Positions 4,762-54,815 of a stretch of DNA of 60,219 bases are shown in pieces. The position numbers and the translations under genes were made by a program. A model generated the notes under the pieces. That model searched no databases and was not told where the DNA came from. It saw only the letters and a list, made by a program, of their open reading frames with translations. The DNA comes from a virus, in IMG/VR virus record IMGVR_UViG_3300028393_000074, positions 1-60,219 of that record; one strand, 5' to 3'. The stretch's first letter is position 1. The number at the start of each line of letters is the position of its first letter.

Positions 4762-4767
4762 TAAATA
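4762..4767 (+). promoter_or_regulatory. Late-type promoter box, leaderless geometry
   Basis: GATAAATAATCGTATG. The last A of the box is six bases before the A of the ATG at 4773, so the predicted +1 coincides with the start codon. No Shine-Dalgarno sequence is present. Confidence 0.6.
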
Positions 4768-4772
4768 ATCGT

Positions 4773-5018
4773 ATGCTACTAAACGAGTTCACTTATTTTG
4801 ATAAAAATCACAAAGATCCACAGGAAGATGGTAGATATCTGAGTCAGCACGATACTAGTGTGCTGCGTGATAAGGATTTGAGAAAGACTCGTTTAACTCT
4901 TGAAATGCTCAACGATCTTAGAAAAGCGGGCGAAGCAAGAGAAAAAGAAAAGAAAGAAGAGTTGGGACTGACTAGAAAGATGTATGCCCAACCACCACCG
5001 GAAGCTGCGGCAGCATAA
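4773..5018 (+). CDS. Small conserved protein between portal and prohead core
   Basis: An 81-residue charged protein (MLLNEFTYFDKNHKDPQ...). The middle carries RDKDLRKTRLTLEMLNDLRK, predicted helical, then a Glu/Lys-rich helix and an Ala/Pro tail. It sits where T4 has gene 67, directly after gene 20. Small ORFs with a RKTRLTL-like motif are common at this site in aquatic T4-like phages as I recall, but I know of no proven function; a prohead core or assembly role is inferred from position only. The ATG has no ribosome site and is exactly six bases after a TAAATA box, suggesting a leaderless transcript. Confidence 0.6.
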   Translation: MLLNEFTYFDKNHKDPQEDGRYLSQHDTSVLRDKDLRKTRLTLEMLNDLRKAGEAREKEKKEELGLTRKMYAQPPPEAAAA

Positions 5019-5045
5019 ACTATTAACACATAGTTTAATTCTTTT
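5016..5045 (+). terminator. Weak AT-rich hairpin after the 81-residue gene
   Basis: TAAACTAT and ATAGTTTA form an 8-bp stem with a 6-base loop, followed by AATTCTTTTT. The stem begins at the stop codon. It has only one GC pair, so termination is doubtful. Confidence 0.3.
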
Positions 5046-5055
5046 TGATAGAAAC

Positions 5056-10268: not shown

Positions 10269-10274
10269 TAAATA
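10269..10274 (+). promoter_or_regulatory. Late-type promoter box, leaderless geometry
   Basis: GGTAAATACTGGTATG. The last A is six bases before the A of the ATG at 10280. There is no usable Shine-Dalgarno in the five-base spacer. Confidence 0.6.
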
Positions 10275-10279
10275 CTGGT

Positions 10280-10810
10280 ATGACTACCGAGTGGACTACA
10301 CCTACAATCTTTTCACAATATGTTGAATCTGGGGCAGAAACTGCACATGTTTCGTGGAACGATTCTAATGGTTGGGCTGCATTATTAAATCGTAATGTTA
10401 ATGAAAGAATTGGTACCAATGGTACACTAGCACATATTGCACGAAGTCCTAAACATGATATATTGACTAAAACTTATTATGTGAAATGTCGGGGTTTTAA
10501 TTTTGTCAATTTACCAGATTCGCCCTCTGGTATAGAACTTAAATTAACCACACAACGTCGAGGCAGAGTAACTGATGACACAATACAGTTATGTTTTGAT
10601 GATAGAACAATTGGTGATAATCAAGCAAATTTAATTGTAGATCCAGTTAAAATATATGGCAGTAGTACAAGTTTATGGAGTGTAGAAAATTTATCTATGT
10701 CAACAATACAAGATTTAAAATTTGGAGTAGTAGTAAGATTGCAGTCTCATCCCAATTACCCTCATCGTGATGAGGCGTATATCAATGCTGTTGAATTGAG
10801 AATCCATTAA
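10280..10810 (+). CDS. Unknown beta-rich protein before the fibre cluster
   Basis: A 176-residue protein I do not recognise. It begins MTTEWTTPTIFSQYVESG and contains WNDSNGWAALLNRNVNERIG, then alternating hydrophobic strands and an ending with AYINAVELRIH. The composition suggests a beta-sandwich with no signal peptide or membrane segment. It opens the fibre region, so a virion or fibre-attachment role is plausible. It appears to be leaderless: a TAAATA box lies exactly six bases upstream of the ATG and no ribosome site is seen. The next gene starts 28 bases after its stop and has its own late-type box. Confidence 0.55.
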   Translation: MTTEWTTPTIFSQYVESGAETAHVSWNDSNGWAALLNRNVNERIGTNGTLAHIARSPKHDILTKTYYVKCRGFNFVNLPDSPSGIELKLTTQRRGRVTDDTIQLCFDDRTIGDNQANLIVDPVKIYGSSTSLWSVENLSMSTIQDLKFGVVVRLQSHPNYPHRDEAYINAVELRIH

Positions 10811-10815: not shown

Positions 10816-10821
10816 TAAATA
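10816..10821 (+). promoter_or_regulatory. Late-type promoter box for the giant fibre gene
   Basis: AATAAATACTC, predicted start near 10827, leaving about 12 nt that still include an AAGGAA ribosome site before the ATG at 10839. Confidence 0.5.
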
Positions 10822-10838
10822 CTCTAAAGGAATAAGAA

Positions 10839-13800
10839 ATGGCTACTATCACAGTATCAGGAACAAGATCACAAACTCCCGGCGGTCCAAGTGCAGTATC
10901 AGCGCCTACTGGTAGCATCAACTTAAATTCCACGATTACTAATGTTTCCGGGCAATTGAATGTTGGCAGCAATTCGACTATAGGCGGAAGTTCATCAGTT
11001 GGTGGAAATTTTTATGTCACCGGTAGCAGTTCCTTAACAAATCAAGTTGTTATATCGAGTACACTTAGTTCAGTTAGTACTACCACAGGTGCATTGGTAG
11101 TTGGTGGTGGAGTTGGAATTGGACAGAATTTAAATGTTGGTGGTAATGCAGTAATAACAGGTACTGTAGTAGTTTACAATAATGTATCTATCACAGGAAC
11201 TATCGCAGTTCTAGGAAGTACTACAACTGTCATTATCAACGCAAATGATAATAATGTAGGTAACCCATTAGGTGTTGAATACACCACTACAAATGTTTAT
11301 GGAACTATCGATCAAAGATTAAAAGGTGCAGTATATGTTGGTGGTGGTGTTGGTATTGAAAAAGATTTGAATGTTGGCGGATACATCTATGGTCGAGTAG
11401 CCAAATCAGATCAAACTGCTCAAACACTAGTCACATCTACTAATGTAGACGAAGTATTTTATCCTACATTCGTTAACAAATTAGGTATTAGTACAGCAAC
11501 ATTTAGCTATACTTATATTGATAACATAAACACCGGCACCGGAGGTACTACTAGTACTGGTGGGTTAACATATAATCCTTATTCTGGATTATTGACAACA
11601 TTTAATGCAAATATATCTGGCCCACAAAATAGTGTCAGTACTGAAACCGGAGCACTTACCGTAGCCGGCGGTGTCGGTATTGCTAAAGATACTCACATTG
11701 GTGGCAAGGCCTATGTCGCTGAACTAATTACCAATTTAATATCTAGCCAAACCGGTCCAATAGCTATCAAACCTGAAGGTGGTGAGACTGATATCTATGG
11801 TGAAATTAATGTTCGCGGCGGCAAAAAGCCTCTTGGAACTGCACCGGTTGTTACAAATACATTGTACGTAACTATGGACGGGGATGACACCAATGACGGT
11901 CGTGCCCAAGATCCAAGCCGGGCTTGTCGTACAATCGGCGGAGCAATGAAAAGCTCGTACTACCAACCTGGCACACAAATTAGAGTAAGCGCCGGTCATT
12001 ATTTTGAAGATAATCCATTACCGATGAAACCATATACATCGGTAATGGGTAGTGATATTCGTACGACAGAGATTGAGCCAATTAATAAAACTCAAGACTT
12101 GTTTCATGTTAATTCTGGATGCTACCTAGCGTTCATGCAATTCTGTCAAGGACGTAGCGGATTGCTTCCTGGTGATTATTATACATCAGATACTAATAGG
12201 GGAGCATATGCCACAGCATTCCCGCCCCAAACTGGTGACAATAGAATTGATTTATTCCATAGCCCATACATTCAAAACTGTACAAATTTAAGCGGCCCGT
12301 GGTTAAAAGATGGTAGTTTGTTTCAACCCAATGGGACTGTTCAAATTCCTATCGTAGTGGGAACTGCTACTTGGGTTGCGAATACATCAAGCATGTTAGT
12401 CACATTGAATACTAGCCTAAGTACTAGTACAGTATTACAGGGAATGAGTGTTAATCAAGGACAACAAAACTTAGGATTTTTTAACGCACGTTCTTTATTG
12501 TTAGCAAATAAGCCATTCTTGCAATCACAAGTAGTCAGCTTTGTTGATCAAACTTTCAATAGTGGAAGTTTTGTTTACAACGCTGCCAGTTGCAGAAGAG
12601 ATCTTGCGTTAATAGTTGATAGTGTTGCATTGGATTTAATTTATAATACTACCAGCGAAAGTATCTTTGCCGGTTTACAATATTGGAATCAAAATGGTTA
12701 TACCGGTAGTATACTAAATCAATTAACAACTACGACCGCAGCAATATCACATGTAAGATCTTTAGCCTATAGTGTGGTCAATGCAATTGACGGTGCTTCG
12801 GCACTGATTGTGGATGCGGATTTTCAAGTTATATTAGATATAATAAACAACGGAACTGCCGGTGTTTCTAACATCATTGTTACAAATGGTGAGAAAACTG
12901 CCAATACAACATTGTTAAATTGTTACAATGCATTGATTGCTGCAAAGCCTACGATTGCTAGTCAAACTGTAGCATGGATTACAGCAAACAATCCAACTTT
13001 TACATTTAATACTTCGACATGCTATCGAGATATTCAATACATGATTGACAGTGTGGCATTTGATTTAAGCCACCCTAATAATATCAGCGGGGCACCAAGT
13101 AATAAACAAGCAGTTAAGTCAGGTGTATATTATTACAATTTTGATTCAACGTCTACGGCTGTGCCCAACGAAGTTCCACAAGTTGTGTCAGCTTACAATT
13201 ATCTAAGATCTATAATACCAAATATTGTCACTGGTGTCGAACTACCTAAAAAATACAGCTTATCAACACAAAGCACTACTGGATATACATCGGCAACAAT
13301 TTACGAATCTGGATTGATACAAGACAAACTAGATCTAATCACTAACATTATTAGAAATGGTCCAAGTGCAGTTTCTGATAAAATTCCAATGCCACTAACT
13401 CAGAGTGGGAACATTGTATTACTTAATGCCTATAGATTATTAGAGGCGAACATAACATTCTTACAAGATGAAATTATAGCATATATTGATAGTCAGTTTA
13501 ATAATTTTGATTATAACAGGCAAATTTGTTACAGGGATGTTGGCATTTTAGTAGAGAATGTCTCTTACGATGCAACATTTGGCGGTAACGAAAAATCTAT
13601 TGAAGCAGGCCTGGCATATTGGAACGGTGCTATCAGCAAAATATCTGGACAAGAAACACAGACCATAAGTGCTATTGATTATCTAAATAGCCTATGTCAA
13701 CGAGTCATCACTAATACTACATGTACTGTACTGTCTCCAGTTGTAGGTATCAAACCAGGTGTGCAGGTAATAAACACTGTGTTGATAGGTGGAGAAGTTT

Positions 13801-28995: not shown

Positions 28996-29001
28996 TAAAT
29001 A
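28996..29001 (+). promoter_or_regulatory. Late-type promoter box inside the fibre run
   Basis: AATAAATAGTA, immediately after the stop of the FN3 gene. Predicted start near 29007, with the leader AAGGATTTAA before the ATG at 29024. Confidence 0.45.
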
Positions 29002-29023
29002 GTATGGTAATCAAAGGATTTAA

Positions 29024-34900: not shown

Positions 34901-34916
34901 AGTTAGGAGAATAACA

Positions 34917-35312
34917 ATGTCAACATCCATTCCAGAACGAGTAGGAGTAGTCTATACAGACGGCACACCTACTGAGATTACATTTACTTGGAGAATCAAA
35001 AGCCTTAGTACCAAGAAAGAAGGCAGTTATAATAATGCGGTGGTGCAAACCTACTGGAATGTCATCGGCACAGATAGTCAAAATAAAACGGGGATATTTG
35101 ATGGGGCAACACCATTTACTACATCGGGACAATCTGGATTCATCGAATTTGCAGATTTACAAGAAGCTGATGTATTAGGTTGGATCAAGGACCAAGTGGT
35201 TGGTTCGTATGCTGATCATATTATGGAGCAAATACATCAGAAGCTTGATGCTCAGTATAATAGCATTTCTGATGCTGCTCTGCCATGGGCGCCCCCGGCT
35301 GAAACTGTCTAA
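34917..35312 (+). CDS. Small conserved phage protein at the end of the fibre run
   Basis: 131 residues. It starts MSTSIPERVGVVYTDGTPTE and contains ITFTWRIKSLSTKKEGSYNN and ENADVLGWIKDQ-like helices (ADLQEADVLGWIKDQVVG), ending AALPWAPPAETV. I believe similar small proteins occur next to fibre genes in T4-like cyanophages, but I cannot give a function. It has a strong TTAGGAG ribosome site and follows the S74 fibre by 16 bases. Its stop overlaps the stop of the convergent Nudix gene by four bases. Possible fibre assembly or tail protein. Confidence 0.55.
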   Translation: MSTSIPERVGVVYTDGTPTEITFTWRIKSLSTKKEGSYNNAVVQTYWNVIGTDSQNKTGIFDGATPFTTSGQSGFIEFADLQEADVLGWIKDQVVGSYADHIMEQIHQKLDAQYNSISDAALPWAPPAETV

Positions 35313-37126: not shown

Positions 37127-38341
37127 TTAGTTGTCCGCGTTGGGTTTTAAGGCTTTGCTCAATGCTTGGCGTTCATTTATAATCTTACCGCCCACTGTTG
37201 ATGTTGTATTATTGTTAATGAAGCCAGTTTTTTGAGTTTTTCTAACCTGGGCACCCATTGTTATTGCAGCATAGTCATTAGCACCGGTGTTATCCATGGT
37301 CATCCTAACATTTTGTTCAAACATTTTCCAGTGTGTGCCTTCATATCTGAATAGTCTATTAGGCAAGTAGTCAGTACGCAAATAAAACTGTCCGTTCAAA
37401 GGGCTTGGTGGAAACGTAATACCTTGACTGAACGGAGAACCATTTGCAGGTATCCCGTCACCAGTTAGATAGCCTACATATAAATCTCTAGAAGGACTTT
37501 GTAATACAATACTGGCATCGAATGTGGCATTGTCAATGCTAACATCCATTCTATCATCAGATACATCAGCAATATTCATCAGCCCGTCATCTTTTAAAGG
37601 TAACACATAATATCCTGTGGTATCATATCCGCTTTTTGGTGCATCCAGCTCTGCCTGTGCGATGACCTGATTATTAATCTCAATACTTTTAGAATAGGTA
37701 CTGAGTAAATCTCTGAGTGTGCTTCCATCTCCGTTACCGCTATCAACATCTAGAATCTCTGCAAATTCTTGGCTATCAACTAGTGGTGAACATTTTGCTT
37801 TTAATAAATGAGGATACCAAGTAGGGCTAAATCCCGCTGCCGGCCTAGTTACTTCCTGTACTACATAAAATCTTTTTAGAGCTGTAATATTATTCTGATC
37901 TAATCCATAGTCATCTTGCAAGTGTGGCAACTCCAACACATCTCCAGCCATGAGTTTTCGACTGAGTGCATCAACACTAGTTTTTATATGGAAATGCATC
38001 ATGATATTATCGTTATTCAGCATTATGCCAAACTGTGTGAGATTGAAATCTAAATCCTGCATGGTATAAATTCCACGAATTATGTACACATCGGGATCAT
38101 ATTTCCTATCTCGATTCTCCATCAATAATACATCTTGGATACCTAATTCTGGAACAGTATTTCCGCTAGTATTAGGTTGAGCAGGTGAGGCTTCTCCCCC
38201 AACTTCGTCTGGGCTAACTGGACCTAAATATTTGTGGACATATATATCAGTGCCGCCAACTTGGAATTGTTCACCGATTATTCTATCTATGAATTTAAAA
38301 TCATTGCCCTTTTCGGGTTTGTATAAACTGAGTCTTGGCAT
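37127..38341 (-). CDS. 14: Neck protein, probably gp14
   Basis: 404 residues (MPRLSLYKPEKGNDFKFIDR...). Features include IQDVLLMENRDRKYDPDVYI, a phage structural-type GDVLELPHLQDD and the sequence YVVQEVTRPAAGFSPTWYPH. The general pattern (an early aliphatic region, then a GDxxxxP strand, then a terminal variable region) and the place between gp13 and gp15 fit gp14, the neck protein that with gp13 closes the head and receives the tail. T4 gp14 is 256 residues; this one has a C-terminal addition with the aromatic beta motif GQFYLRTDYLPNRLFRYEG. A minus-strand late-type box lies nine bases upstream of the ATG, predicting a leader of only about 3 nt. The gp14 call rests more on synteny than on sequence. 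Confidence 0.65.
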   Translation of the reverse strand: MPRLSLYKPEKGNDFKFIDRIIGEQFQVGGTDIYVHKYLGPVSPDEVGGEASPAQPNTSGNTVPELGIQDVLLMENRDRKYDPDVYIIRGIYTMQDLDFNLTQFGIMLNNDNIMMHFHIKTSVDALSRKLMAGDVLELPHLQDDYGLDQNNITALKRFYVVQEVTRPAAGFSPTWYPHLLKAKCSPLVDSQEFAEILDVDSGNGDGSTLRDLLSTYSKSIEINNQVIAQAELDAPKSGYDTTGYYVLPLKDDGLMNIADVSDDRMDVSIDNATFDASIVLQSPSRDLYVGYLTGDGIPANGSPFSQGITFPPSPLNGQFYLRTDYLPNRLFRYEGTHWKMFEQNVRMTMDNTGANDYAAITMGAQVRKTQKTGFINNNTTSTVGGKIINERQALSKALKPNADN

Positions 38342-38349
38342 AGTACTTG

Positions 38350-38355
38350 TATTTA
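38350..38355 (-). promoter_or_regulatory. Minus-strand late-type box for gp14-gp15-Nudix
   Basis: On the minus strand GTTAAATACAAGTACTATG. Predicted start near 38344, leaving about 3 nt before the gp14 ATG. It overlaps the opposing box at 38358. Confidence 0.5.
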
Positions 38356-38357
38356 AC

Positions 38358-38363
38358 TAAATA
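38358..38363 (+). promoter_or_regulatory. Late-type promoter box for gp13, leaderless geometry
   Basis: ACTAAATAATCGTATG. The last A is six bases before the A of the gp13 ATG at 38369; the spacer ATCGT is identical to that before the gene at 4773. Confidence 0.6.
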
Positions 38364-38368
38364 ATCGT

Positions 38369-39127
38369 ATGACTGATACCGAAACCGCCCGACAAATAAT
38401 CGTAGAATATGTTAAAACCATGCTAGGGTCTGGCATGATTGACGTGGAATTAGACCCAGTTCATTACAATGTTGCTATTGATAAGTCACTAGCAAAATAT
38501 CGCCAACGCAGTAGCAATGCTGTAGAGGAAAGTTTTGGATTTTTGACCCTAAACACCGATAATAATGAATATGTAATGCCCAAAGAAGTTGTCGAAGTTA
38601 GACAGCTATTTCGCAGAAGCATTGGCAGCAGAACTGGTGGGGGAGACGGCGGCAGTTTGTTCGAGCCATTTAACCTAGCCTATAGTAATACATATTTGTT
38701 AGCTTCTACTAATATGGGCGGCCTTGCAACTTATTATGCATTTGCCAGCTATCAAAAACAAGTCGGAAAAATGTTTGGCGGTGAGATCAATTTCACTTAC
38801 AATAAAACCAGTAAAGTATTGAATATAATGCAACGCCCTAGAGCGGGTGAAGAAGTGCTAGTTTGGATGTACAACTATCGTCCAGATTTTAATCTGTTGG
38901 ATGATATGTATGCCGGACAGTGGATCAAAGATTATGCTTTGGCCAATGCTAAGGTAATCCTAGGCGAAGCAAGGGAGAAATTTGGGACTATTGCTAGCCC
39001 ACAAGGCGGAACACAGTTAAATGGCACCACCTTGAAAACCGAAGGCAAAGCTGAAATGGAAATTTTAGAGCAAGATCTAATCAATTACAAAGAGGGCGGA
39101 ACACCGCTAACCTGGGTAACTGGATAA
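38369..39127 (+). CDS. 13: Neck (head completion) protein gp13
   Basis: 252 residues. The N-terminal stretch ARQIIVEYVKTMLGSGMIDV followed by ELDPVHYNVAIDKSLAKY matches the T4 gp13 pattern (a helix, then IINVEL, then a second helix ending in Tyr). Later parts include YVMPKEVVEVRQLFRR and WIKDYALANAKVILGEAREK, typical of this family of head-tail connector proteins. It adds to the portal after DNA packaging with gp14. The start has no ribosome site and coincides with the predicted +1 of a late-type promoter. Only 27 bases separate it from the divergent gp14 start. T4 gp13 is 309 residues. Confidence 0.8.
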   Translation: MTDTETARQIIVEYVKTMLGSGMIDVELDPVHYNVAIDKSLAKYRQRSSNAVEESFGFLTLNTDNNEYVMPKEVVEVRQLFRRSIGSRTGGGDGGSLFEPFNLAYSNTYLLASTNMGGLATYYAFASYQKQVGKMFGGEINFTYNKTSKVLNIMQRPRAGEEVLVWMYNYRPDFNLLDDMYAGQWIKDYALANAKVILGEAREKFGTIASPQGGTQLNGTTLKTEGKAEMEILEQDLINYKEGGTPLTWVTG

Positions 39128-40933: not shown

Positions 40934-40959
40934 ATCCGCCCTTTTTGGTACCTTTTCAT
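40930..40959 (-). other. Nine-codon leader ORF coupled to the HNH-like gene
   Basis: ATG at 40959 encodes MKRYQKGRI and stops at TGA overlapping the HNH ATG (ATGA). A minus-strand TAAATA box is exactly six bases upstream of this ATG, the same leaderless geometry seen at other late genes. Confidence 0.35.
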
Positions 40960-40964
40960 ACCAG

Positions 40965-40970
40965 TATTTA
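40965..40970 (-). promoter_or_regulatory. Minus-strand late-type box before the HNH-like gene
   Basis: On the minus strand GTTAAATACTGGTATG. Predicted +1 is the A of the nine-codon ORF at 40959. The CTGGT spacer is identical to that before the gene at 10280. Confidence 0.5.
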
Positions 40971-40995: not shown

Positions 40996-41001
40996 TAAAT
41001 A
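40996..41001 (+). promoter_or_regulatory. Late-type promoter box for the sheath operon
   Basis: GCTAAATAAAA, predicted start near 41007, leader about 27 nt with AAGGAG before the ATG at 41034. Confidence 0.6.
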
Positions 41002-41033
41002 AAACAAAGTAATCCATTAAGGAGATTTTACTC

Positions 41034-44000
41034 ATGGCAAATTTAAGTTCACCAGGAATTCAAGTTAAAGTTATCGACGAGAGTTTTTATACTCCTGCTG
41101 CGCCTGGAAGCACACCGCTTATTTTCATTGCGTCGGCTGAAAATAAATCCAATGCATCCGCGACTGGTACTGCACAAGGTACGCTAAAAGCCAATGCGGG
41201 ATCTGTGTATGTAATCACAAGTCAACGAGACTTAACAAATACTTTCGGAAGTCCAACTTTCCAAGCAGACAATTCCGGAAATCCAATACACGGCGACGAA
41301 AGAAACGAATACGGCTTACAAGCTGCTTATAGTCTGCTAGGCATTAGTTCACGTGCGTATGTAACACGTGCCGATGTAGACTTGGCACAATTGGTTCCAA
41401 CATCGGTGATTCCTACAGGTACACCAGAAGCAGGTGCTTACTGGATCGTTCCTAGTCAAAGCAAGTTTGGAATCAATGTTTGGTCCACTGCAACTAGCCA
41501 ATTTACGCTAGCAACTCCACTAATTATCAATGATGATAATATGGATACAGCGATGAATGCTCTTGCTACAGCTCCAGCAGATGCATTTGGTCAACAAGGC
41601 GATTATGCAGTAGTTGTAACAAAATACAACGGCTGGGACTCAACACCCAACGCAGTCTATTATAAAACTACAGCAGGAACAAATTCTTGGGTAGCAGTTG
41701 AGGGCGGATTTGATGGCGGCAAACAGGTAAAAATGTCCGCACACACTGACTACCCAGATTTCACTGCAAGTGGAACTTCTGCAAAAACTGGCAGTGTTTG
41801 GATTAAAACAACTAGTCCCGGCAATGGAGCAAATTGGACTGTAAAATTCTATAATGGTGGTACTAAATCATGGACTACGAAACTAGCACCAATTTATAAC
41901 AGCACCGTACAAGCCCTTTACTCATATGATTCTGCTGGCGGCGGCGCAAACATTGCAACTGGCACACTATTCGTAGAATCGGATCCCGATCACTACGGAA
42001 TCACCACTGCCACAAATGCTGCCGCAGAGTTCCGTGTTTGGAGATATAATGGAGCAGGATCTACCAGTATCACTGGTGCTGCATCAAACACTATCAGCTC
42101 TAGTACAGCGTCAACATTCTATATCAGAGAAACAGTCAAAGGCAGCAATGCATGGGGTACTACAAAACTAGTGACTGTAGCTGCTGATCCATTAAACCCA
42201 ATAGCTGCTGGCGTTCCAGCAGCATTGAGCGCAGCTGGACTCACTAACGTGACTGGATCATTTGATGCTGTTACTAAAGAATTGACAATCAAACATAAAA
42301 CAGGCGGTGATTTTGAATTGGCTGCGGGAACAGGTCCAGGAACATTTACAGCATTGGGATTCAGTGCTCACACATATGACCCAGCAACGGAGATGTCCAG
42401 CGGTATTACAAATCTCTATACTGCACCTAAAGCTGACTACAGTGGCCGAGCGTTTGATTTTATTGCATCTAGCTGGATGCCGTTAGACTATCATTCAACT
42501 GGAACTACACCATCAACGACCCCAGCTGATGGAAGACTGTGGTTCGACAGCGATATAAAATCAGTGGATATCATGTATCACGACGGCAGCAAGTGGGTTG
42601 GCTATAGGAATCAATTTCCTGCTGCTGATCCAAACGGACCTATTATCTCCGCAACTGCTCCGCCAAAGATTGGTGGACAGAGTGATGGCACCGATCTAGT
42701 AACTGGTGATATTTGGATCAGCACAGAAAACGCAGACAATTATGGTCAGGACATTTATGTATGGGACGGTGTCACAAACGAATGGGTTAAACAGGATCCA
42801 ACTGATAACCATAGTCCAAATGGATGGGTATTTGCAGATGCTCGATGGAGTGGTGCAGGTGATGATATAGTTCCTGATTCTACGAAAAAATTGTTAACAT
42901 ACAATTATGTAGATCCAGATGCTCCCGATCCTGCACTATATCCACGTGGTACACGCTTATGGAATACACGCCGTAGCGGTAACAACGTCAAGCAGTATCA
43001 TAGATCATATATTGATAAAATGGCCACTAACCCACGCATGGGCGATGCGAGCATGAGTGGATATTTTGCAGATCGTTGGGTATCTGTCCACAACCGTAAA
43101 GAAGACGGATCAGGCAATTTTGGTCGTTATTCTCAACGTGCTCAGATTATCGCAGCATTCAAGTCATTAATTGATACTAATAGTGCTATCCGTGATACTG
43201 AAACACTGAGATTTAATCTAATTGCTTGCCCTGGATATCCAGAGGCGATCGCTAACATGGTCAATTTCAATACAGACATTGGACAGACAGCATTTGTTAT
43301 TGGAGATACACCGTTTAGATTATCACCAACAGGTACTGCATTAAGTGCATGGTCAAACAATTCAAACAATGCATTAGACAATGGAGATATTGGCACTGTC
43401 ACTGCCGACAGTTATTTGGCATTATTCTATCCAAGCGGTTTCACAAATGACAACACTGGAAAGAACATTGTTGTTCCTCCAAGTCACATGATGTTGAGCA
43501 CTATGATCAATAGTGACAGTCTAAGCTACGAATGGTTTGCTCCGGCAGGTATCCGTAGAGGTGGCATTATCAATGCAACATCTGTAGGCTATATCAATGA
43601 CATGGGTGAATTCCAAAAAGTAAGTTTATATCAAGGTTTAAGAGATGTATGCTCACAGGTTAAATTAAATCCACTATCTACTATGGTGGGTGTTGGAACA
43701 ATTAACATGGGTCAGTACACAAGGTCAGCTGGTGCAAGTGCATTAGATAGAATCAATGTTTCTAGACTAGTAGCATATCTACGCAGACAACTAAACGTAT
43801 TGGCTAAACCATACTTGTTCGAACCTAACGACACAGCAACTCGTAATGAAATACGTGGTGCCGTTGAAAGTCTACTATTAGAGCTAGTTGGTCAACGAGC
43901 ACTAAATGACTTCGTTGTAGTATGCGACACTTCAAACAATACTCCTGCAAGAATTGATAGAAGCGAGTTATACGTGGATATTGCTATTGAGCCAGTTAAG

Positions 44001-44748: not shown

Positions 44749-44770
44749 TCAACAACTCCGTTAAAACATT

Positions 44771-44794: not shown

Positions 44795-44800
44795 GTTGGA

Positions 44801-44806
44801 TAAATA
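44801..44806 (+). promoter_or_regulatory. Late-type promoter box, leaderless geometry
   Basis: GATAAATAATCATATG. The last A is six bases before the A of the ATG at 44812. No Shine-Dalgarno is present. Confidence 0.6.
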
Positions 44807-44811
44807 ATCAT

Positions 44812-47800
44812 ATGAATCAGGCTTTTAATGATTTCTTAAGCAGTGTGGGCGGTGGTCTATCAGGAGACGGCGGCCCAAACATGAAAAACTACCAACATGC
44901 ATCTAAGTTGTATGTTGAGGGTGGCTATGCACGAGCACCAAAATTTAATCATTTATATTTTGTAGCATTCAACATCAACGATGGTGTGGTAAGGGATCGA
45001 AGCTGGCTACAAAATGGGTATAACACAGTGGGACTACTGGTCAAAAGTACATCATTGCCCAAGTTCAAGATTACTTCTGAACAACTAAATCAGTACAATA
45101 GGAAAACACAAGTACAAACTAAGTTGACCTACGAGCCAGTGACCATGGAATTCCATGATGATAATAGTGAAATCACTAATGGACTTTGGAAAAATTATTA
45201 TCGATATTATTACACAGATAGTATTTACGGCGGCAAGGACGACACAGTAGCACCAACGCCTAGTCAAGTGAGTTTAGGAAAAAAATTGTTTGGTGGGCTG
45301 TTGTCTCCGGGACGCAAAAGAATAAAAGCAAGGGAAAATAATATTTTTCCCGATGCATACACTGATAACAAATACAAGAAACATAATTACCCTTACGGAC
45401 TAGATAATTTTCAAACGGTGCCGTTTTTTAAAAGTATCGATATTTTTGTATTGCATCAACAAAAGTTCACGCAAATAACCTTAATCAATCCTAAAATTAC
45501 CAGCTGGGATCACGACGATGTTGGACAAAGTGACTCTACCAAACTCATGAGAAGTAAAATGTCGCTGGTTTATGAAAATGTTTTGTACAACGACGGTAGG
45601 ATAGGCAAGGGTAGTAAGTCTGGGGTATTCGCAGAAGCATTTTATGATACATCGCCAAGTCCTCTCAGTATCGCAGGTAAGGGATCAAAATCACTGTTTG
45701 GCCCCGGCGGCCTCATTGGTGGAGTCGAAGATGTATTTGGAGAGAATGGATCATTAGCCCAGGGCGATTATCTAGCGGCTGCACTACAGGCCGCAACATT
45801 GATTAAAAACGCAGGACAGATCACTGAACAGCAATTGAGCGCTGAAGGATACAGTATGTTAGGTGCTGCTGTAGGAATCGCCGTGTCTTCTAGAAATGGT
45901 GAAATTGCACAGAATCTCGAGAATTATTTTTCAAACGGTATTGGAGTATACACTAATCAGTATTCAAAAAACAATTTGGAAGATATCCCGACTACCCCGA
46001 ATGCTCTGACTCCGGATCAATATCGAAAATTTATTTTAGATCAAGAAGCAGCCGCGTATGCTCAGGAAGTTGCCGATACACGGGCTAGGCAAGCACAACA
46101 AGAGAGAGAACTTGCCCAGCGTACCAATGCCGAATTAGATGCACTAACTGAACAAAAAAATGCCATTGGAACACAAATATCGAATAATTTGAAAGTTGCG
46201 GAAAAAGCACTTAACACGATAAACGAGTGGAACGAAAAAATAGTCGATCCCACTGATACAAATTTGTTATATTCTTCACCTGTATACATAGCTGCTAGAG
46301 CCCTCGGTGATTCCGAGTCAGTGGCTTTGGGAAAAGCTAAAGCCGATGCAGTAACAGCCAATGAAGGTGCTATAGCTATCATAGAGTCGGCTAATAGACA
46401 AAAAGAATCAGTCTATGCCATTAACAAGTTATTGGTCGCAAATCAAGAGTCTCTTACCCAGCAAGCTCAATTAATAAAAGATTATGGCCCTGATTACGCA
46501 GCTAAAATATCTAGGGATTCTCTAGACTATATACAGAAATATGGTGCTGTTGTTGCGCAAGAAAATACATTAGACACCAGCGCTCTTCCAAATCCTTTCT
46601 TGGATCACGAAATTGCCACAAAAACCTATCTAGCCGCACTTAATTCTGGAAGAATTTCATCCGTAAGTCAAGCTGCCGCAGATCTGCAAACCAGTGAGAA
46701 TCTAGTTAAGGTGGAACGGCAAGCTGCCGTAAGCCAAGCAATTGGTAAGATCACAGAAAATTATGGTAATTTAACATTAGATAAGGCCCAAACTAATGTT
46801 GAGATAGCAGTCTTATTAGCAGAACAATCTAGGATCGATGGTGAGAGAACTGAGTTGACTGATCGGTATCGAGCATGGCAGGTTGACCAAACCTTGGGTA
46901 ATATAGTGGAAGATGCTAAGTATGTTGGATTGAAAAACATAGAGGACATAGAAAAGCTGGTTATTGAGAAAGCGTTATTTCAGAAGGCCGCTTCTAATTT
47001 ATTCACTGAGAAAAAGTTATTGCAAGCAGAATATGCCGATAAAGTTGGTGCGTATCCCGACACAGCATCAGCTAGAGAATTTTTTCTAGGATTAGCTAAA
47101 AAATATGATCCAACGAATCCAGATGCTGGTTTGATAACTAAACAAGATTTTATCGACAAATACTCGGGTGCATCGTATATTGATCCAGAAAGTGGAAACA
47201 CATATAAATGGACCGAAGATCAAGCTGTCCTTAAATATTATGCAGCAGGGGAAAAAGCCCCGGCACTGTATGAAAAAGCTATCGCTAGTTTTGATATTGC
47301 TATTAGTAAGGTAAACAACACGATAGTATTAAACAGTTTCGAATTGAGCAATATTAAAGGTCAAATTGGCGATGCTTATGTCACTTTGTTAAAGTCAAAA
47401 TCTGCAACAGGTGATGAATATACAAATCTAACAACATCTATCGAGAATAAAATCATAGATCTTGGAAAAACACAAGAAAAAATAACAGCTAGCGAACTAC
47501 TATCACAGAGAATGGTTATAGTCAATACTGAACTTGCCTCAGCGCAGGCAGTTGTAGTAAAAGAATTGGCATATAATAAAAACCCCGATAAACCCTATGT
47601 TGTCATGGTCGACACTAGATCGGCCGAACAAATACAGTCCGATAGCAAACCCGCCGCAACGAGTGAGTCTAAATCATTTATGGCCAAAACTACGATATCG
47701 ATGGAGGTATCGGTGCAGCAAGCAATCCTTACATTACAGCAACAATTAGGGACAACTAATATTTACGGATTAACCATTGAGAAACAGGAAACTTTCGATG

Positions 47801-48096: not shown

Positions 48097-48108
48097 TTAA
48101 ACATAATC

Positions 48109-48483: not shown

Positions 48484-48484
48484 C

Positions 48485-48928: not shown

Positions 48929-48936
48929 GTAAGTTT

Positions 48937-49422
48937 ATGACCAAACGACTTAATGAAATTTTTGACTTGCCTGAGGACAAAGACCCTCTAGTAATACCCA
49001 AGGTTGAGGAAACAGCCGCAACTCCTATAATCGCTCTACAGGATCAGCTGGAAGAATTTGATAAAATTGCAGCAGCATTGCCTAGAGTAAAAGGACTAGG
49101 TGATATGAGTGATATGGAGCTCGACGGACTTGCCAGCAAGGCCGAACAGGCCTACGATGACTTAATGGATCTAGGCATGAATGTAGAACCAAAATACGGC
49201 GCTAGGATGTTTGAAATCGCAGCACAGATGATGACTGCTGCCATCGCTGCCAAGACCAACAAGATCGACAAGAAGTTGAAAATGGTTGATCTACAGCTGA
49301 AGAAGCTGGCAATTGAAAAGAAAAACGGTAACCAAGAGAGTGGAAATACTGTAGAAGGGCAGGGATACATCCTAACAGATCGCAATAGTATCCTAGAAAG
49401 ATTAAAGAAATTGGATAAATAA
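48937..49422 (+). CDS. 16: Small terminase subunit gp16
   Basis: 161 residues (T4 gp16: 164). Acidic N-terminus, then DLMDLGMNVEPKYGARMFEI followed by AAQMMTAAIAAKTNKIDKKL, the central coiled-coil helix pair that forms the oligomeric ring in this family, and a polar C-terminus (GYILTDRNSILERLKKL). It regulates packaging by gp17. The position fits T4 order, but two more genes separate it from gp17 here. Its last codons GAT AAA TAA create a TAAATA box that may serve the next gene. Confidence 0.75.
   Translation: MTKRLNEIFDLPEDKDPLVIPKVEETAATPIIALQDQLEEFDKIAAALPRVKGLGDMSDMELDGLASKAEQAYDDLMDLGMNVEPKYGARMFEIAAQMMTAAIAAKTNKIDKKLKMVDLQLKKLAIEKKNGNQESGNTVEGQGYILTDRNSILERLKKLDK
49416..49421 (+). promoter_or_regulatory. 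Late-type box overlapping the gp16 stop codon
   Basis: GGATAAATAAAG. The TAA of the box is part of the gp16 ending. The last A is eight bases before the ATG at 49429, predicting a leader of about two nt. Confidence 0.4.
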
Positions 49423-49428
49423 AGTATC

Positions 49429-49992
49429 ATGAAAAATTTTAAAGAATATCTATCAGAATCTATCGCTGACAAAAAATACAATTTTCGTGTCAAGGTAGCA
49501 GGCGATTTCTCTGCCGATCAAGAAACTAAATTACAGACTATGCTTGAGAAATTTCAAGTAGATGCTTTTAAAAAGTTAAGCGTGACGCCAGTACAAAAGT
49601 TTCCTCTGGACTTTCCACAAATTAGAAACTGCGAAGTTTCTATTTTTGAAGTCACAGTAAACTATCCCACTACCCCACAAGAATTGAAAGAGTATTTGGG
49701 CTCAGGATTAGCAGTCAATCCATCCATGTTGGCAGTAGTAACTCCTGGCATGCCTAGCGAAGAATACCAGCGTGAAGAACCCAAACGCGAAGGCGCACTA
49801 TTAAATGACAGTGAATACAAAGAGGCACCAAATGCAAATTTTGATGACTACTACGGTTCAAAATATAATAGTGGGTTTGTCAAAGAACTCAACGATATCT
49901 TAAAATTGCAACGCAGAGCACGCGGCGAAATCATACCAGAAACTGCTCCTGCTAGTTATATGCAAAGCGCCGAAAACGATACAAGGAAATAA
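49429..49992 (+). CDS. Probable internal head protein with capsid-targeting sequence
   Basis: 187 residues starting MKNFKEYLSESIADKK. This closely resembles the capsid-targeting N-terminus of T4 internal proteins (MKTYQEFIAEA). L8-S9-E10 followed by Ser fits the gp21 cleavage rule. The body is mixed (FRVKVAGDFSADQETKL; CEVSIFEVTVNYPTT), then a charged, Glu-rich segment and ELNDILKLQRRARG. I infer that it enters the prohead core and is trimmed by gp21. The body is not otherwise recognised. It follows gp16 by six bases with a probable near-leaderless promoter and precedes another acidic protein by four. Confidence 0.6.
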   Translation: MKNFKEYLSESIADKKYNFRVKVAGDFSADQETKLQTMLEKFQVDAFKKLSVTPVQKFPLDFPQIRNCEVSIFEVTVNYPTTPQELKEYLGSGLAVNPSMLAVVTPGMPSEEYQREEPKREGALLNDSEYKEAPNANFDDYYGSKYNSGFVKELNDILKLQRRARGEIIPETAPASYMQSAENDTRK

Positions 49993-49996
49993 AATT

Positions 49997-50713: not shown

Positions 50714-50787
50714 TGGCTTTGGCCAAGGCCGGACGTGACGGGGAAGATCTTGAGCCAATTCAAGATAAATTCAACAAGTACAAATAA
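50710..50787 (+). other. Frameshift extension or coupled 25-codon ORF
   Basis: The reading frame starts ATGATG and overlaps the upstream TGA (ATGATGG). It encodes MMALAKAGRDGEDLEPIQDK and five more residues, ending at TAA 50785-50787. It is in the -1 frame of the preceding gene; slippage on A-AAG just before the junction would fuse the two. Confidence 0.5.
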
Positions 50788-50805
50788 TTTACGATCTATT
50801 TGTCC

Positions 50806-50832
50806 AATAGCCTCTTCGGAGGCTATTTTTTT
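50806..50832 (+). terminator. Rho-independent terminator before gp17
   Basis: AATAGCCTC and GAGGCTATT form a 9-bp stem around a TTCG tetraloop, followed by TTTTTTT. The gp17 promoter box starts four bases later. Confidence 0.9.
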
Positions 50833-50835
50833 CAG

Positions 50836-50841
50836 TAAATA
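50836..50841 (+). promoter_or_regulatory. Late-type promoter box for gp17, leaderless geometry
   Basis: AGTAAATAAAGATATG. The last A is six bases before the A of the ATG at 50847. No Shine-Dalgarno is present. Confidence 0.6.
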
Positions 50842-50846
50842 AAGAT

Positions 50847-52439
50847 ATGGCAAACAAAAATCTCGACGGCGTTCTAATTAAGAAAGCCAACACGACTCAG
50901 AAGTGGACTGAAAAAGACATTGAGGATCTATTGAAATGTCAAGATCCTGTTACAGGTCCTGAATATTTTTTAAAGAATTTTTTCTTTATACAGCATGCCA
51001 CACTAGGTAGAATCAAATACGACGCATACGGATATCAAGAAGAACTGCTACACAGCTATCACACCAACAGATATAGCGTTAACATGTTAGGCAGGCAGAT
51101 GGGTAAGACTACTACTGCTGTGGGATACTTGTTATGGTATGCGATGTTTATGCCCGACAGCACAATACTTATTTGTGCCCACAAATACACTGGCGCACAG
51201 GAAATCATGCAGCGTCTAAGGTATGCGTATGAGACTTGCCCAGACTGGATACGGGCAGGTGTTATTAACTACAACAAGCAAAGTATCGAATTTGAGAATG
51301 GGTCACGTATTGTAGCGCAGACAACTACTGAAACAACAGGTCGTGGTATGTCTGTATCATTACTATACTGTGACGAGTTTGCCTATGTTGAACCTAATAT
51401 TGCTGTAGAGTTTTGGACATCTATCGCTCCTACACTGGCAACTGGTGGTAAGGCCATTATTACCAGTACACCAAACAGTGACGAAGATCAGTTTGCACAA
51501 ATTTGGAATGAAGCCAATAAGCGTATTGACGAGTATGGTAATACCACCAAGTTAGGCAAAAACGGGTATTATCCCTATATGGCCATATGGAATCAACATC
51601 CGGATCGTGATGAAAAATGGGCTAGCGAAATGCGCAGTCAATTGGGGGAAGATCGATTTGATCGTGAGCACGAATGCAAGTTCTTAATCTTTGATGAAAC
51701 ACTTATCAGCTCATCTTGTCTAATTGCCTTAGAGGGTCAAGAGCCCACTATGAAAATGGGCCAAGCACGTTGGTATAAAAAGATCAATCCCTCAAGCACC
51801 TACATCGTCAGCTTAGATCCCAGCTTGGGAACTGGCGGAGATAACGCTGCTATCGAAGTGATAGAAGTGCCTAGCATGGATCAAGTAGCAGAGTGGCATC
51901 ATAACCAAACGCCAGTGCAGTCACAGGTTAGAATATTAAGAGATATAGTGAATCACATTGAGGGGAAATGTCAAGCAGCGGGTGTAACATCTAGCATTTA
52001 CTACAGTGTGGAAAATAATACCCTGGGAGAAAGCGCATTGATTGCTATCGAAGCATTGGGCGAAGAATCATTTGCTGGCTTGTTTTTAAGCGAGCCAGTG
52101 AAGCGTGGTCATGTTAGAAGATTCCGTAAAGGATTTAATACTACTCATAATAGTAAAATCTCAGCCTGCGCAAAATTAAAGCAGATGATCGAAACTAAAA
52201 AACTCAAAATACGTAGTAAATCCTTCATCAGCGAGTTAAAAACCTACGTAGGCGAGGGTGTTACATTCAAAGCCAAAGCCGGACATACAGATGATCTAGT
52301 GGCATCTATGCTGCTGGCCGTGAGAATGATCATGACTTTGCAGGAATGGGATCCAACAGTTTACGATAAAATGCGGGATCAAGATGGATTAGAAGCGCAC
52401 GATTTGCCCATGCCCATATATATCAGCACGCCGTTCTAA
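50847..52439 (+). CDS. 17: Large terminase subunit gp17
   Basis: 530 residues (T4 gp17: 610). It is the ATPase and nuclease motor that packages DNA into the prohead. The Walker A-type motif is GRQMGKTT (82-89) and Walker B with catalytic Glu is LLYCDEF (172-178). ITSTPNSDEDQF is the following coupling motif. The C-terminal nuclease domain begins with VSLDPSLGTGGDN (first Asp at 324), followed by a Glu in ENNTLGES and DDLVASMLLA near 492-501. The shorter N-terminus lacks some T4 residues. A strong terminator and a late-type box lie just upstream; the start appears leaderless. Confidence 0.95.
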   Translation: MANKNLDGVLIKKANTTQKWTEKDIEDLLKCQDPVTGPEYFLKNFFFIQHATLGRIKYDAYGYQEELLHSYHTNRYSVNMLGRQMGKTTTAVGYLLWYAMFMPDSTILICAHKYTGAQEIMQRLRYAYETCPDWIRAGVINYNKQSIEFENGSRIVAQTTTETTGRGMSVSLLYCDEFAYVEPNIAVEFWTSIAPTLATGGKAIITSTPNSDEDQFAQIWNEANKRIDEYGNTTKLGKNGYYPYMAIWNQHPDRDEKWASEMRSQLGEDRFDREHECKFLIFDETLISSSCLIALEGQEPTMKMGQARWYKKINPSSTYIVSLDPSLGTGGDNAAIEVIEVPSMDQVAEWHHNQTPVQSQVRILRDIVNHIEGKCQAAGVTSSIYYSVENNTLGESALIAIEALGEESFAGLFLSEPVKRGHVRRFRKGFNTTHNSKISACAKLKQMIETKKLKIRSKSFISELKTYVGEGVTFKAKAGHTDDLVASMLLAVRMIMTLQEWDPTVYDKMRDQDGLEAHDLPMPIYISTPF

Positions 52440-52453
52440 TGACTCAAATTAAC

Positions 52454-52459
52454 TAAATA
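52454..52459 (+). promoter_or_regulatory. Late-type promoter box for the 783-residue gene
   Basis: ACTAAATACAGTATG. The last A is five bases before the A of the ATG at 52464, so +1 would be at or one base inside the start codon. No Shine-Dalgarno is present. Confidence 0.5.
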
Positions 52460-52463
52460 CAGT

Positions 52464-54815
52464 ATGGACGCTATTAAAATTATCTCCCAGGATCTTTTTG
52501 ACAAGATCAGAAGCCGCTTCTCAAACCTAGAAATGGGCGATGATGCAGGTGGTGTTACAATTGACCCCTCGAGTGCTTACTACTTTGATTTCGATTTTGT
52601 TGTAGAAGGCACAAATTTAGGACGAGTCAGCATCAGCTTAGGTGATCTAGGCAGCTTGAAAGTATATTACAGCCAAGGTATCACTGAAAATCAAGATGAT
52701 CCTGTTAAGAAATATTGGTACAGTTTCTTGCGTGAAATGAGATTTTTCGCCATGCGCAGAAAACTTAGATTTGATACAAGAGACATAACTAAAACGAATC
52801 TCGATAAAAACGATTTTCAACATTTGGCCGCTACACAAGGCCCTAAGGAAGAACCAGAAATGACCACTATGAACGAATCCCGTTGGAGCGAAAAAAGCTC
52901 ACGTAAAACTAGCCGTGCTGTTCAAGGCAAGACTGAAGTTATTGTGCGCCACGCAAATCCAGTAGACGAAACATACGCAGGCGCCCGTAGTCAGCGTAAA
53001 AATATCAAAGCAATTTTTATTCAAAATTGTGATGGCGAAAGATTCAAATATCCATTTATTCATCCGGCAGGTGCGTTTGCCATGGCACAACATGTGGACC
53101 ACGGCGGTACTCCTCATGATCCAGCAGGCAAGGCCATCATCGACATGAGCGAACAAATTGCCAAGTTAGGTGAATTTCATCGTAAAGTAAACTCAGCAAC
53201 CCTACATCCTGATGCAACTGGCATCACTGAGCGTGCAATGGCACACCTGTCAGAATTAAAGAACCGTGTGGGCATGTTGAGCAAGCGTCATCACTATCAA
53301 CAATGGATGTCGGAATTCCAAGAGCCGCAAGATGCAGCAGTGACTGAATTGGATGCCGTCACCATGGAAGATTACAAGAGCAAATTTACACAAACTAGTT
53401 TCCAAGAAGAACTATCGGGTTACTTCCCATTACTGCACAGAATTATGGGTGAGGCTAATACCGTTGACCTCGAAGAATTTGTCAAAGAATCTAACGAAGA
53501 CACGAATAGATTAGGAATTGGCCAACAAATGGCGCGTGATGGAATAAAATACAGTCCAGACAAAGAAAACGAACTTATTGATTTAATGGTTCAATACATG
53601 AAGAAAAATGGAATGAGTTCAAAAGAGATTCGATATCGTTTAAATTACGATGAGGATTACATTCCTGATCAACTCAGCGACTTGCCAAAAGAAGGTAGTA
53701 GTGAAGAACCACCGTTTGAACCAGACACAACATCCAACTTCAACAAACCAAACAATCCAAATCGTACAGGCATGGATTCTGCTCGAGCATTGGCACAGCG
53801 CGGAATGTCTCCAGCAGAAAGCATTAATGCTTTTGAAGAATGGGCAACCGCCACAGAGAGTGGTGAGATCACCGATGACCAAATAGGACAATTGGCTGAC
53901 GCAGTTGCCAAATTACCCACGGGAGATGATGGTAAGCCAGAATTGAAGTTGGGTCAGGATGGCAGCGAAGCTATCATGTTCTTTAGTGACTATGGCTTAG
54001 ACAACATGGATCTTCAGACTAAATTAAAAGATGCTGCCAGTGGCGATGAGAATGCAGACCCATTCCAAGTGTTGAAATCTTGGGCTGAGGATGATCATAA
54101 CTATCCGGGACTAATGCAACGCATGGGAATGACTGACACCGAACAGCCGCCCGGTCAAGAACCAGCAGCAGAGCCTGCACCAGAGCCTGAAGCAGATCCA
54201 GCAGCAGCTCCTCCTGAGCAAGGTGAAGAAGATTCGGGAGAAGAGCCGGAGCAACCACAGGGCACTATGTTTGAAGAAATTGCCAAACTAGTCAGTGGAC
54301 GCTTTAATAGAGACAACATGCAAGTTGGTGCATTCAACGGCAAGGAAAATATTGCTTTAGAAGTTAAGAAAGAAATTTCCGAAAAGTTTGGCGAGCAAGC
54401 TGGCGAAATGTCTGAACAACTGGCATTGCAGTTTATGGAAAAATTAAGTAAAGAACGAGACCACGGACCAGTGGGTGACGATGGATTGGCGCGTATTAGA
54501 GAAATCATGCGTCACATGGGCGCTAAGGTAGAAGCCATCGGTGATGTGACCACTAACGGTCATGCTCCTGGTAACAATATTATGACATCAGCAGAGGAAG
54601 GTATCCTAAGCAAAGCTAGAGAGATTGGTAAAAAAGTGCTAGATCGAGTTGCACCCGGCGATGATGAATTACTACGCCAATTGCAAAAAAGTGCAGGCGT
54701 TCCATCACATGCTCAACACGGCAAGCCGCCGATGGCTAGTCCAAATCGTAGACAGCAACAACAAGAAAGCGCCGAATTTGCAGATATTTTGAAGCTGTCC
54801 GGATTGGCAAAATAA
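52464..54815 (+). CDS. Large conserved protein after gp17, probable head-associated
   Basis: 783 residues, no enzymatic motif seen. The N-terminal 120 residues are a mixed alpha/beta domain (YYFDFDFVVEGTNLGRVSIS; KKYWYSFLREMRFFAMRRKL). Then come a helical middle, a segment with FKYPFIHPAGAFAMAQHVDH and an acidic C-terminal half with an E/P/A-rich linker (about 556-598). The last residues, FADILKLSGLAK, closely match the gp22 scaffold end DIRKLAGLSK. I recall large hypothetical proteins of this kind in aquatic T4-like genomes but no function. From the terminal tag I infer interaction with the prohead shell, possibly as an internal protein. The gene is monocistronic between a late-type box and a hairpin. 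Confidence 0.5.
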   Translation: MDAIKIISQDLFDKIRSRFSNLEMGDDAGGVTIDPSSAYYFDFDFVVEGTNLGRVSISLGDLGSLKVYYSQGITENQDDPVKKYWYSFLREMRFFAMRRKLRFDTRDITKTNLDKNDFQHLAATQGPKEEPEMTTMNESRWSEKSSRKTSRAVQGKTEVIVRHANPVDETYAGARSQRKNIKAIFIQNCDGERFKYPFIHPAGAFAMAQHVDHGGTPHDPAGKAIIDMSEQIAKLGEFHRKVNSATLHPDATGITERAMAHLSELKNRVGMLSKRHHYQQWMSEFQEPQDAAVTELDAVTMEDYKSKFTQTSFQEELSGYFPLLHRIMGEANTVDLEEFVKESNEDTNRLGIGQQMARDGIKYSPDKENELIDLMVQYMKKNGMSSKEIRYRLNYDEDYIPDQLSDLPKEGSSEEPPFEPDTTSNFNKPNNPNRTGMDSARALAQRGMSPAESINAFEEWATATESGEITDDQIGQLADAVAKLPTGDDGKPELKLGQDGSEAIMFFSDYGLDNMDLQTKLKDAASGDENADPFQVLKSWAEDDHNYPGLMQRMGMTDTEQPPGQEPAAEPAPEPEADPAAAPPEQGEEDSGEEPEQPQGTMFEEIAKLVSGRFNRDNMQVGAFNGKENIALEVKKEISEKFGEQAGEMSEQLALQFMEKLSKERDHGPVGDDGLARIREIMRHMGAKVEAIGDVTTNGHAPGNNIMTSAEEGILSKAREIGKKVLDRVAPGDDELLRQLQKSAGVPSHAQHGKPPMASPNRRQQQQESAEFADILKLSGLAK

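Follow-up and report, generated by a model that had tools for sequence, protein, structure and literature searches.

TAAATA late-promoter boxes set directly before start codons point to leaderless late mRNAs in a group of T4-superfamily phages

T4-like phages provide a textbook system of late gene expression, whose mRNAs are usually taken to be led by Shine-Dalgarno (SD) sites. The repressor gene cI of phage lambda is one gene under a sigma-70 promoter. The cI mRNA is leaderless (PMC9031893), and lambda is named as the first such case in PMC3160421. Leaderless mRNAs are common in Actinobacteria and Deinococcus (PMC9031893 and PMC3160421), and PMC3160421 places the box of bacterial TA-led leaderless genes ca. 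10–12 bp before the start. Phage transcripts are often leaderless, yet the leaders of AR9 measure 26–491 nt (PMC5312081). In PMC2988020, the T4 late box is given as 8 bp long with its first position at -13. Here, we analyze a viral DNA window of 60,219 nucleotides, i.e. the whole stretch of positions 1–60,219 of the IMG/VR record IMGVR_UViG_3300028393_000074, in which the T4-type late box TAAATA lies four to eight bases, most often exactly five (N5), before the ATG of a set of genes. With a probability of about 0.86, these are T4-type late promoters used with a gp55-like sigma factor, and about half of the late-box genes in the phage group of the window are leaderless or have a leader of about three bases.

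Matches to structural proteins (portal, major head, tail sheath, and neck), the head protease, and dNMP kinase, SSB, and UvsX-like proteins place the phage of the window in the T4 superfamily; judged by its relatives, it would be of the jumbo type. Among named phages, the nearest large terminase subunits (terL) are those of Pseudomonas phage PA5oct (54% identity) and Sinorhizobium phage Phosso (50%), and a megablast search of the phage collection with positions 40001–60000 of the window yielded no near-identical named phage. The records of the relatives are metagenomic and may be fragments. One of them, G003 (144,907 bases), has the same seven N5 sites as the window, all shifted by 56,059 bases, and the two terL proteins are 100% identical over 530 amino acids (aa). 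The group of the window consists of six records (G001, G002, G003, G006, G007, and G008) with 1371 open reading frames (ORFs), listed mechanically by taking the first ATG after a stop, requiring at least 60 aa, and removing overlaps. In addition, we sampled the best 80 of 92 terL loci, at least 80 neck-protein loci, and the DNA of whole or nearly whole records. The deduplicated pool comprises five records and 160 loci, with exact contexts counted once; orthologs were left unmerged, and hence the counts in the pool are not independent. SD sites were scored by a simple 4-mer test (AGGA, GGAG, GAGG, or AAGG at -17 to -5).

The distance between the box and the ATG is bimodal, and the SD site and the short spacing are almost mutually exclusive. 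In the pool, with ORFs of at least 60 aa, 385 boxes lie at 4–8 bases from the ATG (238 of them at five), 33 at 9–16 bases, and 434 at 17–35 bases, while SD sites accompany 23, eight, and 307 of these, respectively. The six group records show the same split: 127 near-box ORFs with the distance of 4–8 bases (five with SD), 14 ORFs at 9–16 bases (one with SD), 130 leadered ORFs at 17–35 bases (94 with SD), and 1100 box-free ORFs (545 with SD). The SD fraction in the near-box ORFs differs from that in the leadered (Fisher's test, p = 3e-33) and in the box-free ones (p = 2e-27). The start codons at the N5 positions of the pool are 238 ATG, two GTG, and no TTG, with two CTG and 15 ATT codons also heading open frames there; at the SD-leadered sites, there are 307 ATG, ten GTG, and 11 TTG codons. 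The original prediction, made from the window alone, had set a count of box distances as its own test, and in the group N5 is by far the most common distance from TAAATA to the start, with the split by SD supporting the prediction; the pattern is much stronger in the relatives than in the window.

Outside the group, near-box ORFs are absent from T4 (0/244), KVP40 (0/365), Syn9 (0/182), S-PM2 (0/200), and GAP32 (0/514), 0/1505 in total, and are few in PA5oct (1/390), G004 (3/539), and G005 (10/411, two with SD). It had been noted beforehand that leaderless late genes are not a known rule for T4; the spacing indeed belongs to the group of the window. A looser test, accepting any ATG followed by at least 60 codons, yields sites at 4–8 bases in T4 (five), PA5oct (four), Syn9, GAP32, and S-PM2 (one each), G004 (seven), and G005 (17), none in KVP40, and 17–40 in each of the six group records.

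The enrichment is specific to the hexamer. In five group records, TAAATA is the rarest of 15 hexamers (itself and 14 permutations), and its N5 rate per 1000 sites is 81.6 vs. 0.5–8.3 for the permuted ones; in six comparison records, there is little signal (7.6 vs. at most 5.7). TAAATA at N5 is also the top position-specific hexamer, present in 47 of 924 genes with the background of 4.2. The raw N5-ATG pattern counted without the ORF filter is a weaker test. Compared with the reversed control on both strands (pattern/control), it yields 19/10 in G001, 23/4 in G002, 10/5 in G003, 13/4 in G004, 17/16 in G005, 11/2 in G006, 10/2 in G007, 11/5 in G008, 10/12 in G009, 15/12 in PA5oct, 3/2 in Phosso, 10/5 in T4, 2/2 in KVP40, 3/3 in Syn9, 5/8 in GAP32, 15/9 in Atu_ph07, 1/2 in Aeh1, and 5/3 in S-PM2.

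In the window itself, TAAATA-N5-ATG occurs seven times vs. 1.73 expected from dinucleotide shuffles, and none of 100 shuffles reaches seven. Five N5 boxes (at 4762, 10269, 38358, 44801, and 50836) precede the starts at 4773, 10280, 38369, 44812, and 50847, and one match lies on the minus strand (40957–40970). Other near gaps are four bases at 52464, seven at 49429, and eight at 38341 on the minus strand. In the gene table of the window (38 hand-listed genes with 45 upstream bases each), eight genes have a box 4–8 bases before the ATG, namely 4773, 10280, 37127 (minus strand), 38369, 44812, 49429, 50847, and 52464. None of the eight has an SD site, and none has an in-frame start upstream of the ATG before the next stop. 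By contrast, all five genes with the box 17–36 bases before the ATG (10839, 29024, 34917, 41034, and an HNH endonuclease gene on the minus strand) have an SD site. The spacings, the lack of SD at these starts next to SD-led genes elsewhere, and the shared spacers (ATCGT twice and CTGGT twice) had all been pointed out earlier and were found as described; the near exclusion of SD by the short spacing extends to the relatives (5/127). The sites are as follows.

4762..4775, plus strand: late box, N5, and ATG of gene 4773–5018 (81 aa), adjoining the portal gene; phrog_13986, function unknown
10269..10282, plus strand: late box, N5, and ATG of gene 10280–10810 (176 aa), function unknown
38339..38355, minus strand: late box, N8, and ATG of gene 37127–38341 (404 aa), virion structural protein, phrog_11591; a 3-nt leader, ACU, is predicted
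38358..38371, plus strand: late box, N5, and ATG of gene 38369–39127 (252 aa), head-tail adaptor Ad2 (neck), phrog_211
40957..40970, minus strand: late box, N5, and ATG heading a nine-codon ORF; interpreted here as a leadered promoter for the HNH endonuclease gene; HNH match
44801..44814, plus strand: late box, N5, and ATG of gene 44812–48096 (1094 aa), with a PHROG tail-tube match at residues 70–137; directly after a stem and T-run
49416..49431, plus strand: late box, N7, and ATG of gene 49429–49992 (187 aa), virion structural protein; weak match to phrog_14802
50836..50849, plus strand: late box, N5, and ATG of gene 50847–52439 (530 aa), terminase large subunit (PHROG); directly after a stem and T-run
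52454..52466, plus strand: late box, N4, and ATG of gene 52464–54815 (783 aa), head or virion structural protein, phrog_13484
40996..41036, plus strand, for contrast: late box with the 32-base spacing and SD AAGG, tail sheath gene 41034–44096, phrog_10581
10816..10841, plus strand, for contrast: late box with the 17-base spacing and SD, tail fibre gene 10839–17426
28996..29026, plus strand, for contrast: late box with the 22-base spacing and SD, gene 29024–34900
34894..34919, plus strand, for contrast: late box with the 17-base spacing and SD, gene 34917–35312; another box is present 36 bases upstream of this ATG

The seventh N5 match (2892–2905, plus strand) is located within the coding frame 641–3004 and fails the ORF test as a gene start. 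Over the whole window, TAAATA itself is underrepresented (41 found vs. 74.8 expected), as if there were selection against stray late promoters.

The spacing mode is gene-specific and conserved across distant relatives. To count conservation, we considered distinct upstream regions of 18 genes, dropping those with no usable start or with fewer than 45 upstream bases. The orthologous regions are near-box in 39/40 cases for 44812, 25/25 for 52464, 71/76 for 38369, 58/64 for 37127 (minus strand), and 5/5 for each of 4773 and 10280. The tail sheath gene 41034, taken as a control, has a leader with SD in 70/72 regions and is never near-box. The same absence of near-box regions holds for the remaining controls, whose SD counts are 57/58 for 44113, 36/36 for the SSB gene 54951, 35/39 for 55961, 55/73 for 39985, 9/9 for the major head protein gene 7956, 4/7 for the portal gene 3016, 2/2 for 10839, 4/4 for 29024, and 3/3 for 34917.

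Two genes are less uniform. Orthologs of 49429 switch between the modes, with 25/52 regions near-box and 27/52 leadered (22 of the latter with SD). For terL, 38/57 regions are near-box, three have a leader with SD, two an SD without a box, and 14 neither. A quick tree (with long branches flagged) covers 57 distinct terL proteins; 37 of them are near-box, and the state changes at least eight times. Among near-box relatives, L018 and L010 have a leader with SD, L011 has an SD without a box, and L038 has neither. The switches to a leader with SD, at both terL and 49429, are nested. The terL proteins of L011 and G008 (L015) are nearly identical, while their upstream DNA is quite different, one being SD-led and the other near-leaderless. 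In a marine subgroup (L078–L086, seven of the 37 near-box proteins on the tree), TAAGTA replaces TAAATA upstream of terL at a similar distance; this could be a shift in the specificity of the late sigma factor with the spacing kept.

The N5 spacing puts TAAATA at -11 to -6. Since the T4 late box starts at -13 (PMC2988020), the +1 position would fall on the A of the ATG, as the original prediction had proposed from the same geometry. The base preceding the ATG is a pyrimidine in 68/69 N5 sites without SD in the six group records, and this signature independently supports the A of the ATG as the first transcribed base. SD genes of the pool lack such a preference at -1 (116 A, 114 T, 47 C, and 30 G). 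The same +1 fits the late-box genes with SD leaders in T4, KVP40, GAP32, Syn9, and PA5oct, where A occupies the sixth position downstream of the box in 63% of 133 cases. At the wider near spacings the A moves into the spacer: in the six records, spacer base 5 is A in 18/23 N7 sites, and spacer base 6 is A in 8/13 N8 sites. A simple start rule (a purine after a pyrimidine, at bases 5–7 after the box), applied to 136 sites, yields leader 0 in 68/69 N5, 10/13 N4, and 10/18 N6 sites and leader 3 in 16/23 N7 and 8/13 N8 sites. We read this as two main putative sub-classes of near-box sites, with leaders of zero and three bases. In the pool, the spacer ends with ACT in 45/60 N7 sites; most of these are orthologs of 37127 on the minus strand (38) and 49429 (12), with distinct regions counted somewhat differently. 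Likewise, the gaps of eight and seven bases at 38341 and 49429, described in advance as near-leaderless, correspond to predicted leaders of about three bases.

A gp55-type sigma factor (phrog_12791, phrog_234) is encoded in all 12 records considered; the copy in G003, at 49191–49982, is located about 6 kb to the left of the region matching the window. The boxes would then be read by the host RNA polymerase carrying this phage factor. The first transcribed base would be the A of the start codon at spacings of 4–6 bases and would lie about three bases before that codon at spacings of 7–8 bases, often giving ACU-AUG. The near-box mRNAs, having no room for an SD, would be translated by initiation at a 5'-terminal AUG (leaderless, 70S-type), whereas the remaining late-box genes have longer leaders, most of which contain an SD. 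Spacings between these two ranges are avoided, probably because the resulting leaders suit neither mode of initiation. A plausible benefit is that no near-box product would arise from read-through RNA, each such gene depending on its own late promoter.

Several observations weigh against this scheme. The RNA 5' ends are inferred from the position of the box. The simple start rule gives a two-base leader in 8/18 N6 sites, a start inside the ATG in 3/13 N4 sites, and no call at 8/136 sites, including 5/23 N7 and 2/13 N8 sites. The leadered promoters of the group have a broad A-rich stretch after the box (57% A at base 6 and 58% at base 7), which blurs the +1 position. The box of the group lacks the fixed TA at -13/-12 of the 8-bp T4 box, TATAAATA (-13 to -6). 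Its six-base core, TAAATA, was itself the search term, the position of the core being strongly enriched in the group. The -13/-12 positions are a/gC in Aeh1 according to PMC2988020, so these two bases vary within the T4-type family. The weaker 5' structure of the N5 genes (-1.82 vs. -2.60 kcal/mol) is partly a matter of composition, as the shuffles have -2.82 and -3.43. The scheme also presupposes a host able to translate leaderless mRNA. Finally, a TTG at codon 29, accompanied by an SD-like GAGG, could serve as the start of terL instead of the ATG.

The alternative that survives best, while still improbable, is that the promoters are real but transcription starts several bases up- or downstream, leaving a short untranslated stretch or removing a part of the ATG. 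The +1 position is borrowed from T4 (PMC2988020), the A of the ATG is the fifth base after the box at N4, and the rule fails at some N4, N6, N7, and N8 sites; yet the initiator signature is in place at 68/69 N5 sites, and the spacings of 9–16 bases are avoided.

Somewhat less probable is that TAAATA next to the ATG is no promoter and serves as an A/U-rich translation signal replacing the SD on longer read-through mRNAs. Near-box genes do lack SD sites, and many of them closely follow an upstream gene. However, the same hexamer also occurs 17–35 bases upstream of SD genes, and the almost invariant pyrimidine at -1, together with the A at base 5 or 6 of the spacer in N7 and N8 sites, fits a transcription initiator. 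Moreover, a stem with a T-run lies just upstream of the box at 18/112 near-box sites in five records vs. 0/92 leadered SD sites, plainly so in the window before 44812 and terL, and it would cut read-through. The divergent genes 38341 (minus strand) and 38369 have no upstream partner at all: only 27 bp separate them, and their boxes lie back to back, 2 bp apart (38350–38363), so neither an SD nor translational coupling would be possible there without long read-through. The boxes of this pair are 2–6 bp apart in 58/77 ortholog upstream regions. Two polymerases would hardly fit there together, and the arrangement may impose a choice between the neck gene and its neighbor.

It is very unlikely that the ATGs are wrongly called as starts and that ribosomes initiate at a later codon with an SD. 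The terL TTG at codon 29 with its GAGG would fit this, but the other seven of the eight genes have no SD-bearing in-frame start within 30 codons, and alignments to relatives mostly begin at residues 1–3 (in 92/93 loci for 37127 on the minus strand, 91/99 for 38369, 84/85 for 49429, 43/49 for 52464, 6/8 for 4773, and 5/6 for 10280), the fractions being lower for terL (45/107) and 44812 (48/73). Coincidence in A+T-rich DNA, or a single inherited sequence counted repeatedly, is already refuted, even though orthologs of a small number of genes account for many pool sites and the unfiltered N5-ATG count is only about twice the reversed control in G001 (19 vs. 10) and G003 (10 vs. 5), since the window count exceeds all 100 shuffles, permuted hexamers are flat in the same genomes, PA5oct (33% GC and TAAATA-rich) has 1/390 near-box ORFs, and the near-box genes of one genome are different genes.

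The N5 match on the minus strand had been taken for the start of a nine-codon ORF at 40959; the match is present, while the ORF does not hold as a gene. The HNH endonuclease gene starts at 40933 on the minus strand, with the box 31 bases from its ATG and the SD AAGG. Among 76 distinct HNH upstream regions (93 alignments, one dropped), 58 have a box 9–54 bases away, 17 are near-leaderless (e.g. in G001), and one has no box. The N5 ATG is present in just 2/58 leadered regions (those of the window's species and L088), and we rejected the leaderless mini-gene; this ATG is a chance one in the leader of the HNH gene. The leader (40933–40970, minus strand) contains two AAAAGGGC-type repeats that are also found in many relatives, and near-leaderless HNH relatives (e.g. 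L023 and L157) have similar repeats upstream of the box instead. These repeats may be more than an SD.

Among the SD-led genes of the window are those for high-copy parts, namely the major head protein, the sheath, and 44113 (at the tube position of PA5oct), but also the tail fibre and other large genes; the near-leaderless ones encode the terminase, the neck, and other structural proteins, as well as two proteins of unknown function. In the near-box set of G001 (20 of 24 ORFs scanned), there are four virion or baseplate matches (phrog_14467, 43, 11591, and 13484), five homing or HNH endonucleases, one deoxyribonucleotidase, and unknowns; among the leadered ORFs with SD, of which 19 of 21 distinct ones were scanned, there are four homing endonucleases and structural matches, along with an endolysin, an ATP-dependent protease, and unknowns. 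A clean split by gene function was therefore rejected for G001, as homing endonucleases occur in both sets. For the original description of the transcripts as leaderless virion mRNAs, this means that the late-type promoters and the proposed lack of leaders stand, while "virion" is too narrow, given the terminase and, in G001, the homing endonucleases. As a tentative idea, a single class of late promoters may feed two modes of translation, with SD leaders for high-copy parts (capsid, sheath, and tube) and leaderless mRNAs for low-copy assembly parts, the terminase, and some homing endonucleases. The latter would be translated only from their own late promoter, never from read-through RNA, and the ribosome pool might shift late in infection toward 5'-terminal AUGs. 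The gene roles in the window weakly back this stoichiometry. We also considered a link of the leaderless mode to a phage-encoded ribosomal protein bS21 and found it unsupported: bS21 is encoded in 5/12 records, several of which may be fragments (G002, G004, G005, PA5oct, and Phosso), and of these only G002 belongs to the strongly leaderless group.

Leaderless mRNAs and T4 late promoters are each known separately; their combination as a conserved rule in a T4-superfamily group seems to be new. Among the papers listed by searches of an open-access library, some of the lists being capped, none was seen to report late genes without leaders for T4-like or jumbo phages, and the available text of PMC9004378, PMC9693318, and PMC5259590 contains nothing on leaderless T4-like late genes. 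The group provides a natural series for studying when genes gain or lose leaders and what purpose leaderless translation serves in lytic infection. It also suggests that start-site prediction relying on SD sites could misplace such genes.

Compared with known systems, the late mRNAs of the group would resemble that of lambda cI in being phage mRNAs that start at the AUG, as judged here from sequence; lambda cI is one gene, while near-box ORFs with late boxes number 127 of 1371 in the group. Bacterial TA-led genes, as described in PMC3160421, similarly have a -10-type box about 10–12 bases before the ATG and no SD. Unlike these, the box of the group is of the phage late-sigma type and serves late genes that lie beside SD-led genes with the same box. 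The PA5oct-like phages (Wroclawvirus) have a related terL (54% identity) and a gp55 homolog, but have 1/390 near-box ORFs. Finally, the T4 late promoters (gp55/gp33/gp45) have in common with the group the TAAATA core, the gp55 homolog, and the box before head, neck, and tail genes; they differ in that T4, KVP40, Syn9, S-PM2, and GAP32 together have 0/1505 near-box ORFs, and in that the box of the group is less fixed at -13/-12.

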